Source: Nibribacter ruber
GTDB lineage: Bacteria > Bacteroidota > Bacteroidia > Cytophagales > Hymenobacteraceae
Length of the DNA stretch: 64,000 nt
NCBI RefSeq assembly: GCF_009913235.1
Contig: NZ_CP047897.1
Location: 3,471,001 to 3,535,000, forward strand
Direction of reading: 5' to 3'
Shown here: positions 14,728 to 55,848 of the stretch, piece by piece
Layout: each line of letters starts with the position of its first letter
Position numbering within the stretch: position 1 is the stretch's first letter
Translations under genes and position numbers: made by a program
Notes under the pieces: generated by a model
Seen by the model: the letters and a program-made list of their open reading frames with translations, nothing else
What the model was told of the DNA's origin: nothing
Databases searched by the model: none

Positions 14728-14781
14728 GCTAAACGCAAAGAGCGGAAACCGTAAGTACGGTTTCCGCTCTTTGCGTTTAGC
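14728..14781. terminator. Long perfect hairpin after terC
   Basis: 25-base arms starting GCTAAACGCAAAGAGCGG pair perfectly around AAGT. It lies 16 bases beyond the terC stop and abuts palindromic repeat copy 5. There is no long T tract of its own, so a terminator role is inferred from position. Confidence 0.75.
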
Positions 14782-14819
14782 CGTTTTTGGCCTGTTTCCC
14801 AGAAAACAGGCCAAAAACG
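14782..14819. repeat. 38-bp palindromic repeat, copy 5
   Basis: Arms match 17/18. It touches the hairpin at 14728-14781 in a convergent gap. Confidence 0.93.
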
Positions 14820-21552: not shown

Positions 21553-21585
21553 CGACACCCGCTTTCCTTAGGAGAGCGGGTGTCG
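21553..21585. terminator. Hairpin after mutS, likely terminator
   Basis: CGACACCCGCT pairs with AGCGGGTGTCG. It lies between a partial left arm of the 38-bp repeat (21544-21553) and the full copy 7. Confidence 0.6.
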
Positions 21586-21586
21586 T

Positions 21587-21624
21587 CGTTTTTGGCTTAT
21601 TTTATGGGAAACAAGCCAAAAACG
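21587..21624. repeat. 38-bp palindromic repeat, copy 7
   Basis: Arms match 15/18. It follows the mutS hairpin after one base. Confidence 0.9.
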
Positions 21625-21700
21625 ACAAAGTGAAGAGAGCTTCTTCAATTCCTTAAAGTAATAGCAGTTAGAAATAGCCAGTGGTCCAAATCAACTGGCG

Positions 21701-21748
21701 CGAGACTTTAGTCTCGTGACTGGGGATGAAGCGAGTCTCCAGACTCGC
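21701..21748. repeat. Two short perfect palindromes
   Basis: CGAGACTTTAGTCTCG (21701-21716) and GCGAGTCTCCAGACTCGC (21731-21748) stand 14 bases apart. They look like repetitive extragenic palindrome halves. Confidence 0.7.
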
Positions 21749-21949
21749 CGGGGACTACGAGCAGATATCTTCCAGTCTAAACCCAAATGCTTTTGGTTGT
21801 ATTTTACCGGTTTCCTTGTTTCGCGTCTTCAGCGTGTGGTATGGATACGACCCACATTCGTTGTCATGAGTCTGGAGATTCACGCCAGAAAATACCAAGA
21901 GACTGAGGAATTGGCCTAGAGTAATTAGGGTGGATGCCAAAAATTTCTA

Positions 21950-22014
21950 ACCAGCACCTCCTCGTTTTTTGGGTAGTTTTAGTGGAAGCCGACCAAAAAC
22001 CAGGTGGTGCTGGT
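21950..22014. repeat. Larger palindrome around a decayed 38-bp repeat
   Basis: The outer arms ACCAGCACCTCCT and AGGTGGTGCTGGT pair at 12 of 13 positions. They enclose a decayed, 39-base copy at 21963-22001. Confidence 0.7.
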
Positions 22015-22098
22015 GTGGGCGCAGAAAAACTTTGAAAAATTTGTGCCTGATTTTCAGAAAGATTCCTGTTTGGTGAAGATTTTTTTTTGGCCTAGTGC

Positions 22099-34003: not shown

Positions 34004-34996
34004 ATGCAAACGGACGAACTCTTATTCCAGGAACGGATTCGAGAGCATCAGCTGAAGATAAAGCAGGTGTTCAAAGAAGTGGGCAAGGTTGTGGTGGGGC
34101 AGCAGTACATGGTGAACCGGCTGCTCATAGGCTTGTTCACCAACGGCCATATTTTGCTGGAGGGGGTGCCGGGTTTAGCAAAGACGTTGACGATCAATAC
34201 CCTGGCCAAGGTGCTCCACCTGAATTTCTCCCGCATCCAGTTCACGCCAGATCTGCTGCCTTCTGACTTGATAGGCACCATGATTTATAACCAGAGCTCC
34301 TCGGCGTTTGAGGTGAAGAAAGGACCCATCTTCGCGAATTTGATTTTGGCAGATGAGGTGAACCGCTCGCCGGCCAAGGTGCAGTCTGCCTTGTTGGAGG
34401 CCATGCAAGAGAAGCAGGTGACCATTGGTGATAAAACCTATCGGCTGGATCTGCCTTTCTTGGTGCTGGCCACCCAGAACCCGGTAGAGCAGGAGGGAAC
34501 CTACCCGCTGCCCGAAGCCCAGGTAGACCGTTTCATGATGAAGGTGTACGTGGATTACCTTTCCAAGGCAGATGAGCTGGAAGTGATGCGCCGCATGGCC
34601 AACCTGTCCTACAGCAGCACCGTGAACACCGTCCTGACCAAGCAAGACATCTTCGACATTAGAAACGCCATCAACCAGGTACAGATTTCTGAGACCTTGG
34701 AGCGATACATCATTGAACTGGTGTTTGCCTCGCGCCGACCCGCCGACTATGACCTGAATGACTTCGCGCAGTACCTGCAATTTGGCGTGTCGCCTAGAGC
34801 CAGCATCGCCTTGAACCTGGCAGCCAAGGCCGTGGCCTTTTTTGACGAGCGCGACTACGTACTCCCTGAAGACATCAAAGAAATTGCCACAGACGTCCTC
34901 AGCCACCGCATCATCCTCAACTATGAGGCCGAGGCCGACAACGTGCAGACCAAGGACTTCGTGGAATCCATTTTGCGTAAAGTACCCATCAGTTAA
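34004..34996 (+). CDS. MoxR family AAA+ ATPase
   Basis: The 330-residue protein has Walker A GVPGLAKT (about residues 55-62), Walker B LILADEVNR (about 114-122), sensor 1 ATQNPVEQEGTYPLPEAQ (about 154-171) and the C-terminal lid with VSPRAS. MoxR ATPases act as chaperones that help load metal or mature a partner, usually with DUF58 and von Willebrand factor A proteins encoded next door. None is present here: a palindromic repeat follows after 30 bases and then unrelated genes. Confidence 0.93.
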   Translation: MQTDELLFQERIREHQLKIKQVFKEVGKVVVGQQYMVNRLLIGLFTNGHILLEGVPGLAKTLTINTLAKVLHLNFSRIQFTPDLLPSDLIGTMIYNQSSSAFEVKKGPIFANLILADEVNRSPAKVQSALLEAMQEKQVTIGDKTYRLDLPFLVLATQNPVEQEGTYPLPEAQVDRFMMKVYVDYLSKADELEVMRRMANLSYSSTVNTVLTKQDIFDIRNAINQVQISETLERYIIELVFASRRPADYDLNDFAQYLQFGVSPRASIALNLAAKAVAFFDERDYVLPEDIKEIATDVLSHRIILNYEAEADNVQTKDFVESILRKVPIS

Positions 34997-35016
34997 GATA
35001 CCCATTTATGTATTAT

Positions 35017-35074
35017 CCTCAGAGGCCGTTTTTGGCCTGTTTTCCAGGAAACAGGCCAAAAACGGCCTCTGAGG
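35017..35074. repeat. 58-bp palindrome containing 38-bp repeat, copy 10
   Basis: The core copy is at 35027-35064 with arms matching 17/18. The arms extend outward by 10 more paired bases (CCTCAGAGGC with GCCTCTGAGG). It is 20 bases past the MoxR stop and could stop transcription. Confidence 0.93.
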
Positions 35075-35347
35075 TTTAAAGCTAGTCTCAAGGGTTTTGA
35101 CGGGTTTGCTCCAAACTGGCACTAGGTCATAACGGGTAAACTCTCTTTGTTAATGTACAACTCTTAAAACATTCTGGTCCATCGTACAGGTGGTAACGTC
35201 TAGTGAAGAAGCATTGCTGCGGTGGTAGGTGAGAAGGAAACAATTCAAAGGCTAACTGGTAAAGCCCTATTTTTTAGCCTGCTGCATATCTCAAACTTTG
35301 TGTATTACGTGCCAGCTAATCGAATTCTTCTTTTGCTTCTTGAAAAC

Positions 35348-35385
35348 CGTTTTTGGGCTGTTTTCTAAAAAATAAGCCAAAAACG
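35348..35385. repeat. 38-bp palindromic repeat, copy 11
   Basis: Arms match 14/18. It stands alone in the gap, 284 bases after copy 10. Confidence 0.88.
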
Positions 35386-35403: not shown

Positions 35404-35435
35404 GTAAAAGAAAAAGCCTGCCATTGCTGGCAGGC
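35404..35435 (-). terminator. Terminator of the receptor/beta-helix operon
   Basis: On the minus strand GCCTGCCA pairs with TGGCAGGC and is followed by TTTTTCTTTT. It lies about 109 bases past the stop of the beta-helix gene. Confidence 0.82.
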
Positions 35436-35543: not shown

Positions 35544-36875
35544 TTAGTAGTCTGTATTCTGCGGATCCCAGTTGGTCCAGCCGGTGGTCCAGTTGGTTGT
35601 CCCGAAGGCACCTAGGTGGGCAACATTCTCAAAACCGGTCATGCCGGTGAAAGACGCGCCAGAAAGGGCCATGGAACCGGTGTTAGGCATGTAGGGAGCA
35701 TTGGTGTTCAGGCCTAATTCTGCGGTGGTTTTTACGCTGTTGGCAAAGCTGTTAGTGCCAAACCAATCTGCGGCATTAAAAGCAGAGGTAGAAGAAGAGG
35801 CCTTGTTGATGGTGGTAGAAGTTCCTGCGCCTGCCACCACTGTGTTCATGATGTTAATGCTGTTGTTTTGCGCATAACCTTCTACCAGGCTTCCGTCTAA
35901 GGTAATGCCTTTGGCAAACCCCGTGATGAGCGAGTTTCTGATAGATAAGCTGGTTCCTTTCTTTAGGTGGGCACCTTGACCAAACTGTGCACCGCTGGGT
36001 AAGTTGGCGCCTGGGCCTATGATGGTCACGTTGGAGAAGGTGGCCGTAGTCAAAGGCGTCAAGGTAGAGCCAGAACCGTCGTTGTCAGACTCAAAGCCGT
36101 TGGAGGCGCCGCCAGAAGCCACGTCCCAAAGGTTAGGATCACTCACGCCCAACGCAAACTGCACGCGACCGCTGTAGCCAAAGTCAGTGTCAAACATATC
36201 ATCGGTGTTTTTGTAGGCTACCAGGTGCGTAGCGTTTACCGTGCCACCAAACCATTCAAAGGCATCATCGCCGCCAAAAGACACTTGCACGTGGTCTATC
36301 TTGGTGCCAGAACCTACTGCGCCCATGGTCAGGCCGTTCAGTTCTTTGTTGGGCTGCAGCGGGTAACCGGCAAACTCAATGCGCACGTAGCTGAACACAC
36401 CTGAGTTGTCGGCGTCATTGGTGCCGCCGTAGTACGCATCTGGGCCGCCCTCTACCACTGGGTCTGAGGTTTGGTTTTGTCTGGCTTTGCCCAGGATCAC
36501 TACCCCGCCCCAATCACCCGGCGCGCGCTGGCCTTTGGCTTGGTTAGACGTGAACACGATGGGTTTCTCTGCGGTGCCCTGCGCCATGATCTTGGCGCCT
36601 CTCTTCACAATCAAAGTCCCTTGTGACGCTTTCTCGCCTTTGATGATGGTTCCTGGCTCAATGGTAAGCGTAGCGTTGTTGTCTACATATACAAACCCTT
36701 TGAGCGTGTAGATGGTGTCTGCGTCCAGGGTTCTGTTGGCAGTGATGGAGCCTTGCAAGATGCCTTGTCCTTTGGTTACCACTAGCGGCGAGTCATCCTC
36801 ATCATCTGTGCAGGCGGTAAACGTGACCACTAGTAACAAGTAAAATAGCAGTCCTAATTTTCTTAACTCTTTCAT
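35544..36875 (-). CDS. Surface lipoprotein with parallel beta-helix
   Basis: The 443-residue protein has a lipoprotein signal ending at Cys22 (TFTAC), followed at once by TDDEDD, an acidic stretch like the Bacteroidota lipoprotein export signal that sends lipoproteins to the cell surface. The body has right-handed beta-helix features: LTIEPGTIIKG, LIVKRGAKIMAQG, then IEFAGYPLQPN, HVQVSFGGDDAFEWFGG and NATHLVAYKNTDDMFD. It starts 46 bases after the TonB receptor stop, so the two are probably one operon. By analogy with SusC/SusD pairs it may be the substrate-binding partner of the receptor, but it has no SusD fold. Ligand unknown. Confidence 0.85.
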   Translation of the reverse strand: MKELRKLGLLFYLLLVVTFTACTDDEDDSPLVVTKGQGILQGSITANRTLDADTIYTLKGFVYVDNNATLTIEPGTIIKGEKASQGTLIVKRGAKIMAQGTAEKPIVFTSNQAKGQRAPGDWGGVVILGKARQNQTSDPVVEGGPDAYYGGTNDADNSGVFSYVRIEFAGYPLQPNKELNGLTMGAVGSGTKIDHVQVSFGGDDAFEWFGGTVNATHLVAYKNTDDMFDTDFGYSGRVQFALGVSDPNLWDVASGGASNGFESDNDGSGSTLTPLTTATFSNVTIIGPGANLPSGAQFGQGAHLKKGTSLSIRNSLITGFAKGITLDGSLVEGYAQNNSINIMNTVVAGAGTSTTINKASSSTSAFNAADWFGTNSFANSVKTTAELGLNTNAPYMPNTGSMALSGASFTGMTGFENVAHLGAFGTTNWTTGWTNWDPQNTDY

Positions 36876-55324: not shown

Positions 55325-55744
55325 ATGGCTGGAAACGTAACGTTCACCATGATCAAACCAGATGCCGTGCAGGACAACCACATTGGCGGTATCACTAAAA
55401 TGATGGAAGAGGCTGGCTTTAGAGTTGTGGCCATGAAAAAGACGCGCCTGACTGAGGAGCGTGCCGGTAAATTCTACGAGGTGCACAAGGAGCGTCCGTT
55501 CTACGGCGACCTGGTAAAATACATGAGCTCTGGCCCAATCGTGGCTATGATTCTGGAGAAAGACAACGCCGTGTTGGATTTCCGTACGTTGATTGGCGCC
55601 ACCAACCCAGCGCAGGCTGAGGAAGGAACCATCAGAAAGCAATATGCCAAGTCTGTAGAGGCCAACGCCGTGCACGGTTCTGACTCTGATGAGAACGCCC
55701 AGATTGAAGGAGACTTCTTCTTCTCTGCCGACGAGCGTTTCTAG
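55325..55744 (+). CDS. ndk: Nucleoside-diphosphate kinase
   Basis: The 139-residue enzyme transfers phosphate between nucleoside di- and triphosphates. The phospho-accepting His is residue 117 in [18 protein letters not shown] at the start and [15 protein letters not shown] complete the family. The last two codons and stop (CGT TTC TAG) are part of a palindromic repeat that begins at 55736. Confidence 0.97.
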
Positions 55745-55773
55745 TCTGTTTTCTGGAAAATAACCCAAAAACG
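55736..55773. repeat. 38-bp palindromic repeat, copy 18, overlapping the ndk stop
   Basis: Arms match 13/18. Its first 9 bases are the ndk codons Arg, Phe and stop. Its right end is reused as the left arm of the terminator at 55767-55800. Confidence 0.85.
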
Positions 55774-55800
55774 CCTGATGCTCACGTGTCAGGCGTTTTT
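55767..55800 (+). terminator. Terminator of ndk
   Basis: AAAAACGCCTGA pairs with TCAGGCGTTTTT; T residues continue. It is nearly identical in sequence to the terminator at 57033-57062. Confidence 0.88.
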
Positions 55801-55810
55801 TTGTGCCCGC

Positions 55811-55848
55811 CGTTTTTGGGCTGTTTTCGGGGAAAATGGCCAAAAACG
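55811..55848. repeat. 38-bp palindromic repeat, copy 19
   Basis: Arms match 14/18. It follows the ndk terminator by 10 bases. Confidence 0.9.

Follow-up and report, generated by a model that had tools for sequence, protein, structure and literature searches.

The 58-bp palindrome at positions 35017-35074 of the window, the term used here for the whole 64-kb stretch of DNA analyzed, probably acts as the intrinsic transcription terminator of a MoxR-type gene, and it would have been built by selection around a resident copy of a dispersed 38-bp palindrome. In the proposed hairpin, a site-specific 10-bp outer stem would form the lower part and the 38-bp repeat the upper stem; the outer pairs would have been gained around the resident copy, which would explain why they extend the helix of the element and have exactly its axis, and they would then have been kept through selection for an RNA hairpin. 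The copy would thereby be older than its outer arms, and transcription would end at 35017-35074; about one copy of the family in ten would have been recruited as a terminator in this manner, the rest lying beside a separate terminator or without any.

As for the site itself, the palindrome has 26 perfect pairs and a 6-nt centre. All 10 bases of its left outer arm (35017-35026; CCTCAGAGGC) pair with the right outer arm (35065-35074; GCCTCTGAGG), which is followed by TTT at 35075-35077, and between the two arms lies the 38-bp copy (35027-35064; consensus CGTTTTTGGCCTGTTTTCYRGAAAACAGGCCAAAAACG), with a counterpart at this position in both G017 and G048, two other species. The sequence-only reading had described a nested palindrome of 58 bp and an extension that is site-specific and centred on the copy; the former proved real, with a 38-bp copy and perfectly paired 10-bp flanks, and the latter was borne out. 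The plus-strand gene that precedes it (34004-34996; 330 aa), whose product we take to be a MoxR-type AAA ATPase, has a stop codon ending 20 nt 5′ of the outer stem; the palindrome thus provides the stable RNA hairpin soon after a stop that is expected of a terminator, and the predicted RNA fold of 35005-35086 has an energy of -52.7 kcal/mol (z -10.4). The T tail after the stem is TTT in the window, a run of only three bases, CTTTT in G017, and TTATTT in G048; the nested hairpins of these three species have stems of 24-27 bp. The 3′ neighbor across the gap is a convergent minus-strand gene (35544-36875; 443 aa), with an N-terminus that is presumably lipoprotein-like. The same gap contains a second copy of the element (35348-35385) and, adjoining it, a separate minus-strand hairpin with a T run (35406-35435; read from the gap sequence, L101), which is terminator-like and would serve the convergent gene.

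The region 3′ of the MoxR gene was compared over 15 species, the sixteenth (G060, L116) being left out because of a contig end. A hairpin over the score limit follows the gene in 13 of the 15, and shorter hairpins are present in the sequences of the other two, G051 and G037. The nested element is the hairpin in G000 (the genome of the window), G017, and G048, with outer stems CCTCAGAGGC, CTGAAGC, and AATAGTCC, respectively; the copy of G048 is in another spelling than those of G000 and G017. Ten of the 12 other species have a different hairpin at this site, and in most other species, as read from the printed sequences, the element, intact or decayed, comes after an ordinary stem. In G006 (L103) and G022 (L112), facing half-elements, AAACAGCCCCAAAAC...GTTTTGGGGCTGTTT, extend an ordinary terminator stem, a layout that reads as the inverse of the nested arrangement. 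The position of the MoxR 3′ hairpin is conserved across species, and its letters are not. Since the MoxR 3′ sequences of L104 and L107 are identical to those of the named records L001 and L002, the genus can be identified as Rufibacter.

Regarding the family, the pattern of the element (at most 2 mismatches) gave 1548 copies on the G000 chromosome (one contig of 4,352,178 bases, on which the window spans 3,471,001-3,535,000) and 24 to 1192 in each of 15 other genomes of the genus, the 1192 being those of G017; in five other genera (134 genomes), the same spelling had 1-2 matches in 9 genomes, a frequency not above that of the reversed control, and the plasmids had no match to the 38-mer. Four spellings were counted over 16 genomes, with reversed controls of zero for all four. 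GTTTTTGGCCTG occurs 858 times in G000, 604 in G017, and 604 in G060, and GTTTTGGGCCTG 470 times in G060, 403 in G012, and 168 in G000, many sites being counted twice since the two patterns are two letters apart in total; GTTTTCGGGCTCA has 922 sites in G048 and at most 3 in any other genome, and GTTTAGGGGCTG has 784 in G045 and at most 171 in any other, while G006 has at most 7 for each of the four. On these counts, the 38-base palindromic site is peculiar to one genus and is spelled differently by species. The copies are mostly intergenic, at a median of 47 nt past stop codons, and 32 of 324 G000 copies lie inside called ORFs; with genes called by a simple ORF-length rule here and in the flank counts below, the G000 sample has 0.67 copies per convergent gap, 0.33 per tandem gap, and 0.29 per divergent gap, or 3.7, 2.5, and 1.4 copies per kb, respectively. 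Read in the sense direction, the edge of the element is also where a hairpin ends in 38 of 306 cases, versus 30 of 1223 control places. Over the 43 stretches of 20 kb in this sample, the mean is 7.5 copies per 20 kb; three stretches have none and may be acquired islands.

The sequence-only reading would have been refuted by flank pairing no commoner than chance; over about one fifth of the genome, the pairing proved commoner, and the reading was not refuted. In 464 kb with 162 copies (at most 2 mismatches), perfect outer runs of at least 6 were found at 17 copies, against 0.3 expected from shuffled flanks; in 864 kb (∼20% of the genome; at most 3 mismatches), an outer score of at least 5 was reached by 32 of 323 copies (a further copy, with a cut flank, was dropped from the 324) against 1.7 expected, and a score of at least 3 by 55 against 14. 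The pairing begins at the very edge of the element: perfect runs of at least 6 with no unpaired base there (offset 0,0) occur at 26 copies, with 0.3 expected, and the 35 other offsets gave 4 altogether, split evenly between 1,1 and 3,3. An excess was also present in G017 (36 of 258 copies vs 1.5 expected) and G012 (18 of 122 vs 1.7), and a smaller one in G048 (19 of 154 vs 8.1).

The flank-paired copies are found close behind genes. Those of them that occupy tandem or convergent gaps (n = 27) lie at a median of 28 nt from the nearest upstream stop (10-90% limits 12-63 nt), and the 202 unpaired copies at a median of 39.5 nt (limits 2-204). The 3′ end of the stem has a T fraction of 0.51 in the tandem flank-paired copies (n = 14), several of which have no T run, compared to 0.30 in the control. 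A separate hairpin within ∼60 nt upstream accompanies 1 of the 27 flank-paired and 54 of the 202 unpaired copies (p 0.007), a count that leaves out 22 copies of middling score (4 with a hairpin) and that is biased toward scarcity in flank-paired copies, whose left outer arm occupies part of the searched stretch. Convergent gaps hold 13 of 28 flank-paired copies and 62 of 235 others, a weak enrichment (p 0.044). As for the inner arms, 15.2 of 17 positions pair in flank-paired copies and 13.3 of 17 in the others; their variable positions covary at outer scores of at least 5 (0.774 vs 0.720 expected) and of 3-4.5 (0.758 vs 0.673), and in the remaining copies, with pairing of 0.605 vs 0.625 expected, there is no covariation.

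G017 is the single relative near enough for a site-by-site comparison, with orthology taken from anchors and flank similarity. Its intervals hold a copy for 164 of the 190 anchored G000 copies (29 more G000 copies have no anchor), and an earlier, looser pass had found a copy in 37 of 39 intervals; nine of the 164 mappings are double, and these are included in the 164/190 and in the counts of compensatory changes and excluded from the counts over the 155 distinct G017 copies. Over the 155 sites, the flanks are paired at 12 in G000 and G017 alike, at 5 and 6 in just one of the two, and at 132 in neither (p 4e-10), pairing therefore being discordant at 11 sites around a copy common to both; for the 106 sites with similar flanks, the respective numbers are 7, 2 and 5, and 92. 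The simplest reading would be that of a resident copy whose outer pairs come and go. Double compensatory changes in the inner arms amount to 22 in 32 flank-paired sites and 15 in 115 unpaired ones (Fisher p 1e-7), two groups that leave out 17 of the 164 sites, those with middling outer runs. At the 14 sites paired in both species (run of at least 4), 24 of 87 outer pairs differ at both bases and have kept their pairing; changes on one side alone are excluded at these sites by construction. Over the 106 similar-flank sites, identity is 0.75-1.00 at the pattern positions (a range inflated by the fact that both copies were called by those positions), 0.59-0.92 at the other positions of the element, and 0.47-0.68 in the flanks. 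Selection for the RNA hairpin is favored because of the location at gene ends, the T bias, and this persistence of pairing with changed letters.

It is very improbable that the element is a mobile palindrome that entered palindromes or terminator loops already present, at their axis, as the sequence-only reading had suggested. The dispersal of the copies would suit such insertion, as would those outer stems that by themselves resemble A-stem-T terminators, for example AAAAGCCCCGGCT/AGCCGGGGCTTTT; however, insertion is unsupported because the orthologous intervals mostly carry copies, and the 26 G017 intervals without a called copy (11 alignable, 12 with poorly aligned flanks, and 3 too long) gave no clean empty site among the 11 that could be aligned. 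Nine of these hold a decayed or near-threshold copy, and one (big 32796) is a hairpin in which the motif is eroded; the interval at L093:8709 lacks a copy, its letters differ, and it is not a precise empty site. The outer stems have no remnant of an unpaired loop except in 4 symmetric cases, and no link to a transposase was found. What stood of the suggestion is the involvement of terminators; the insertion at their axis was not supported. Target-site inversion, also put forward from the sequence, is not general: among the 155 orthologous copies, the forward alignment matches better in 106, the reversed one in 24, and 25 are ties. On the same 106 of 155, inversion of the whole element was rejected.

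Template switching at the replication fork, by which the nascent strand would fold back at the element and copy past its edge so that, without selection, the second flank is made as an inverted copy of the first, is an unlikely explanation. It is described for RNA hairpins in an excerpt of PMC8794818, and it suits outer arms that are perfect over 9-15 bp and start exactly at the edge of the element; alone, however, it does not predict the closeness to stop codons, the T tails, the few separate hairpins, and the recurrence at identical sites in another species, and unpaired copies lack homogenized inner arms. Being able to create and mend arms, it could supply the mutations that first make long perfect ones, and the hairpin-mediated copying at a fork that had been proposed for this DNA is in this respect a possible source of mutation; the location, the T bias, and the kept pairing point instead to selection on RNA. 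A wider claim, somewhat unlikely, is that the whole family consists of RNA hairpins, either REP-like stabilizers of mRNA 3′ ends or terminators, beyond the flank-paired tenth. The placement of the copies (intergenic, a median of 47 nt past stops, and 0.67 per convergent gap) agrees with it, as do the covariation of arm positions 7/32 in G017, G048, and G012 (z 5.0-5.5) and the paired changes by which listed G037 copies often differ: among the 17 two-mismatch copies listed there for the spelling GTTTAGGGGCTG, 12 carry changes that form a symmetric pair, so that the G037 sites look more like covarying hairpins and would favor an RNA role in that species. In G000, however, the two arms vary independently over the 324 copies, positions 9/30 alone covarying weakly (z 2.7), and orthologs of unpaired copies seldom show double compensatory changes (the 15 in 115 given above). 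An excess of sense-strand GT over AC mismatches is not clear for all tandem copies (174/148 in G000, 58/45 in G048, 49/51 in G012, and 128/132 in G017), and because these counts are near equal, no strand-specific RNA selection is visible in the whole family.

A published description of the 38-bp repeat was not found in the open-licence literature. The excerpts of PMC1852404 and PMC3630211 report that USS/DUS of Neisseria and Pasteurellaceae are recruited into terminators; these sequences resemble the repeat in their copy numbers of roughly a thousand and upward per genome, in being co-opted in part into terminator hairpins, richest tail-to-tail, and in their species "dialects" (Neisseriaceae), and they differ from it in that their unit is single, of ∼9-12 nt, and the hairpin is a pair of units, whereas the unit of the repeat is a 38-bp dyad. 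A unit for DNA uptake would occur singly, which is not what the repeat does: half-sites without a partner number 7 of 570, versus 8 in the reversed control. As for REP elements, the excerpts of PMC3733652 and PMC12306157 describe them as 20-40 bp long, palindromic, intergenic, high in copy number, and located chiefly in convergent or tandem gaps near 3′ ends, with CGTC-type REPs reported from Bacteroidetes too; the repeat is likewise short, palindromic, and intergenic, with more than 100 copies. The unpaired GTAG or CGTC tag is absent from the consensus ends and the 8-nt flanks in four species. Matches to PF01797 (RAYT) occur in 15 of 16 genomes; G017 has none yet contains 1192 copies, and a RAYT-like gene, the one examined among three G000 matches, is flanked by a different palindrome. 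A RAYT/REP system is unsupported: the tag is lacking, and a RAYT link was not found where it was looked for. Near L098:5523-6068 of G000, a RAYT-like Y1 transposase gene has several copies of a palindrome of the type cggggattt..aaatccccg upstream, and soon after it, at L098:6348-6385, is a copy of the repeat similar to the G048 spelling (TTCATTT..AAATGAG). With intrinsic (Rho-independent) terminators, the recruited copies share the hairpin soon after the stop, a tail that is T-biased on average, and the pairing retained as letters change; the difference is that the upper stem is here a dispersed repeat, hence the 24-27 bp stems at the MoxR site.

Turning to the unrecruited majority, since its arms vary independently and its half-sites are yet rarely found alone, a symmetric protein-binding site is expected rather than an RNA hairpin, and these copies are perhaps, with less confidence than the terminator reading, dyad-symmetric protein-binding DNA sites. 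The centre of the G000 element avoids pairing (z -7.8). In a tentative and broader proposal, the repeat might be the site of a genus-specific symmetric protein that marks the ends of transcription units, with ∼1,550 sites per chromosome at most, respelled genome-wide between species, reworked in place (as seen at one orthologous site, the MoxR gap), and recruited in about a tenth of cases as a ready-made terminator stem. In raw sequence, an RNA hairpin looks like a conserved dyad site in DNA, and the two are told apart here; the comparison suggests the recruitment of the DNA site into the hairpin, with covariation that can be measured. With the species spellings, looking for a trans-acting factor becomes directly testable: a single genus includes G000 and G048, with ∼900 sites of one spelling each, and G006, with at most 7 of any of the four. 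Regarding the two central bases, they are CA or TG in most copies of G000, G017, and G048, and not so in G012; between G000 and G017 orthologs, compared with loop inversion in view, the CA/TG centre is unchanged at 58 sites, flipped at 11, and changed to or from another centre at one base in 32 cases and at both in 11. In a G000 sample inspected by eye, no link was visible between the CA/TG polarity and gene strand or chromosome position.

The 64-kb window contains other copies with neighboring or surrounding hairpins, and the Rfam search at the gathering threshold returned two tRNAs and nothing else in it. A decayed 39-nt copy nested in the palindrome 21950-22014 has flanks of 13 bases, 12 of which pair, the same count that the sequence-only reading had given; this number comes from the printed sequence, and the palindrome listing gives 20-nt arms at 90%. 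It sits within 21628-22018, a segment of ∼390 bp upstream of a tRNA-Gly/tRNA-Leu pair in place of which the collinear G017 interval has ∼15 bp, and G017 accordingly has no counterpart to compare. In the third nested case (1356-1407), the copy at 1363-1400 has 7-bp paired flanks, AAGCCTT/AAGGCTT; its G017 ortholog has paired flanks of 5 bp with different letters. Elsewhere the hairpin is beside the element and not around it, as for the perfect palindrome with 26-bp arms at 14728-14781, which abuts the copy at 14782-14819, and for the hairpin at 21553-21585, next to the copy at 21587-21624. Finally, 55736-55848 contains two copies separated by 37 nt, between which lies a short palindrome.
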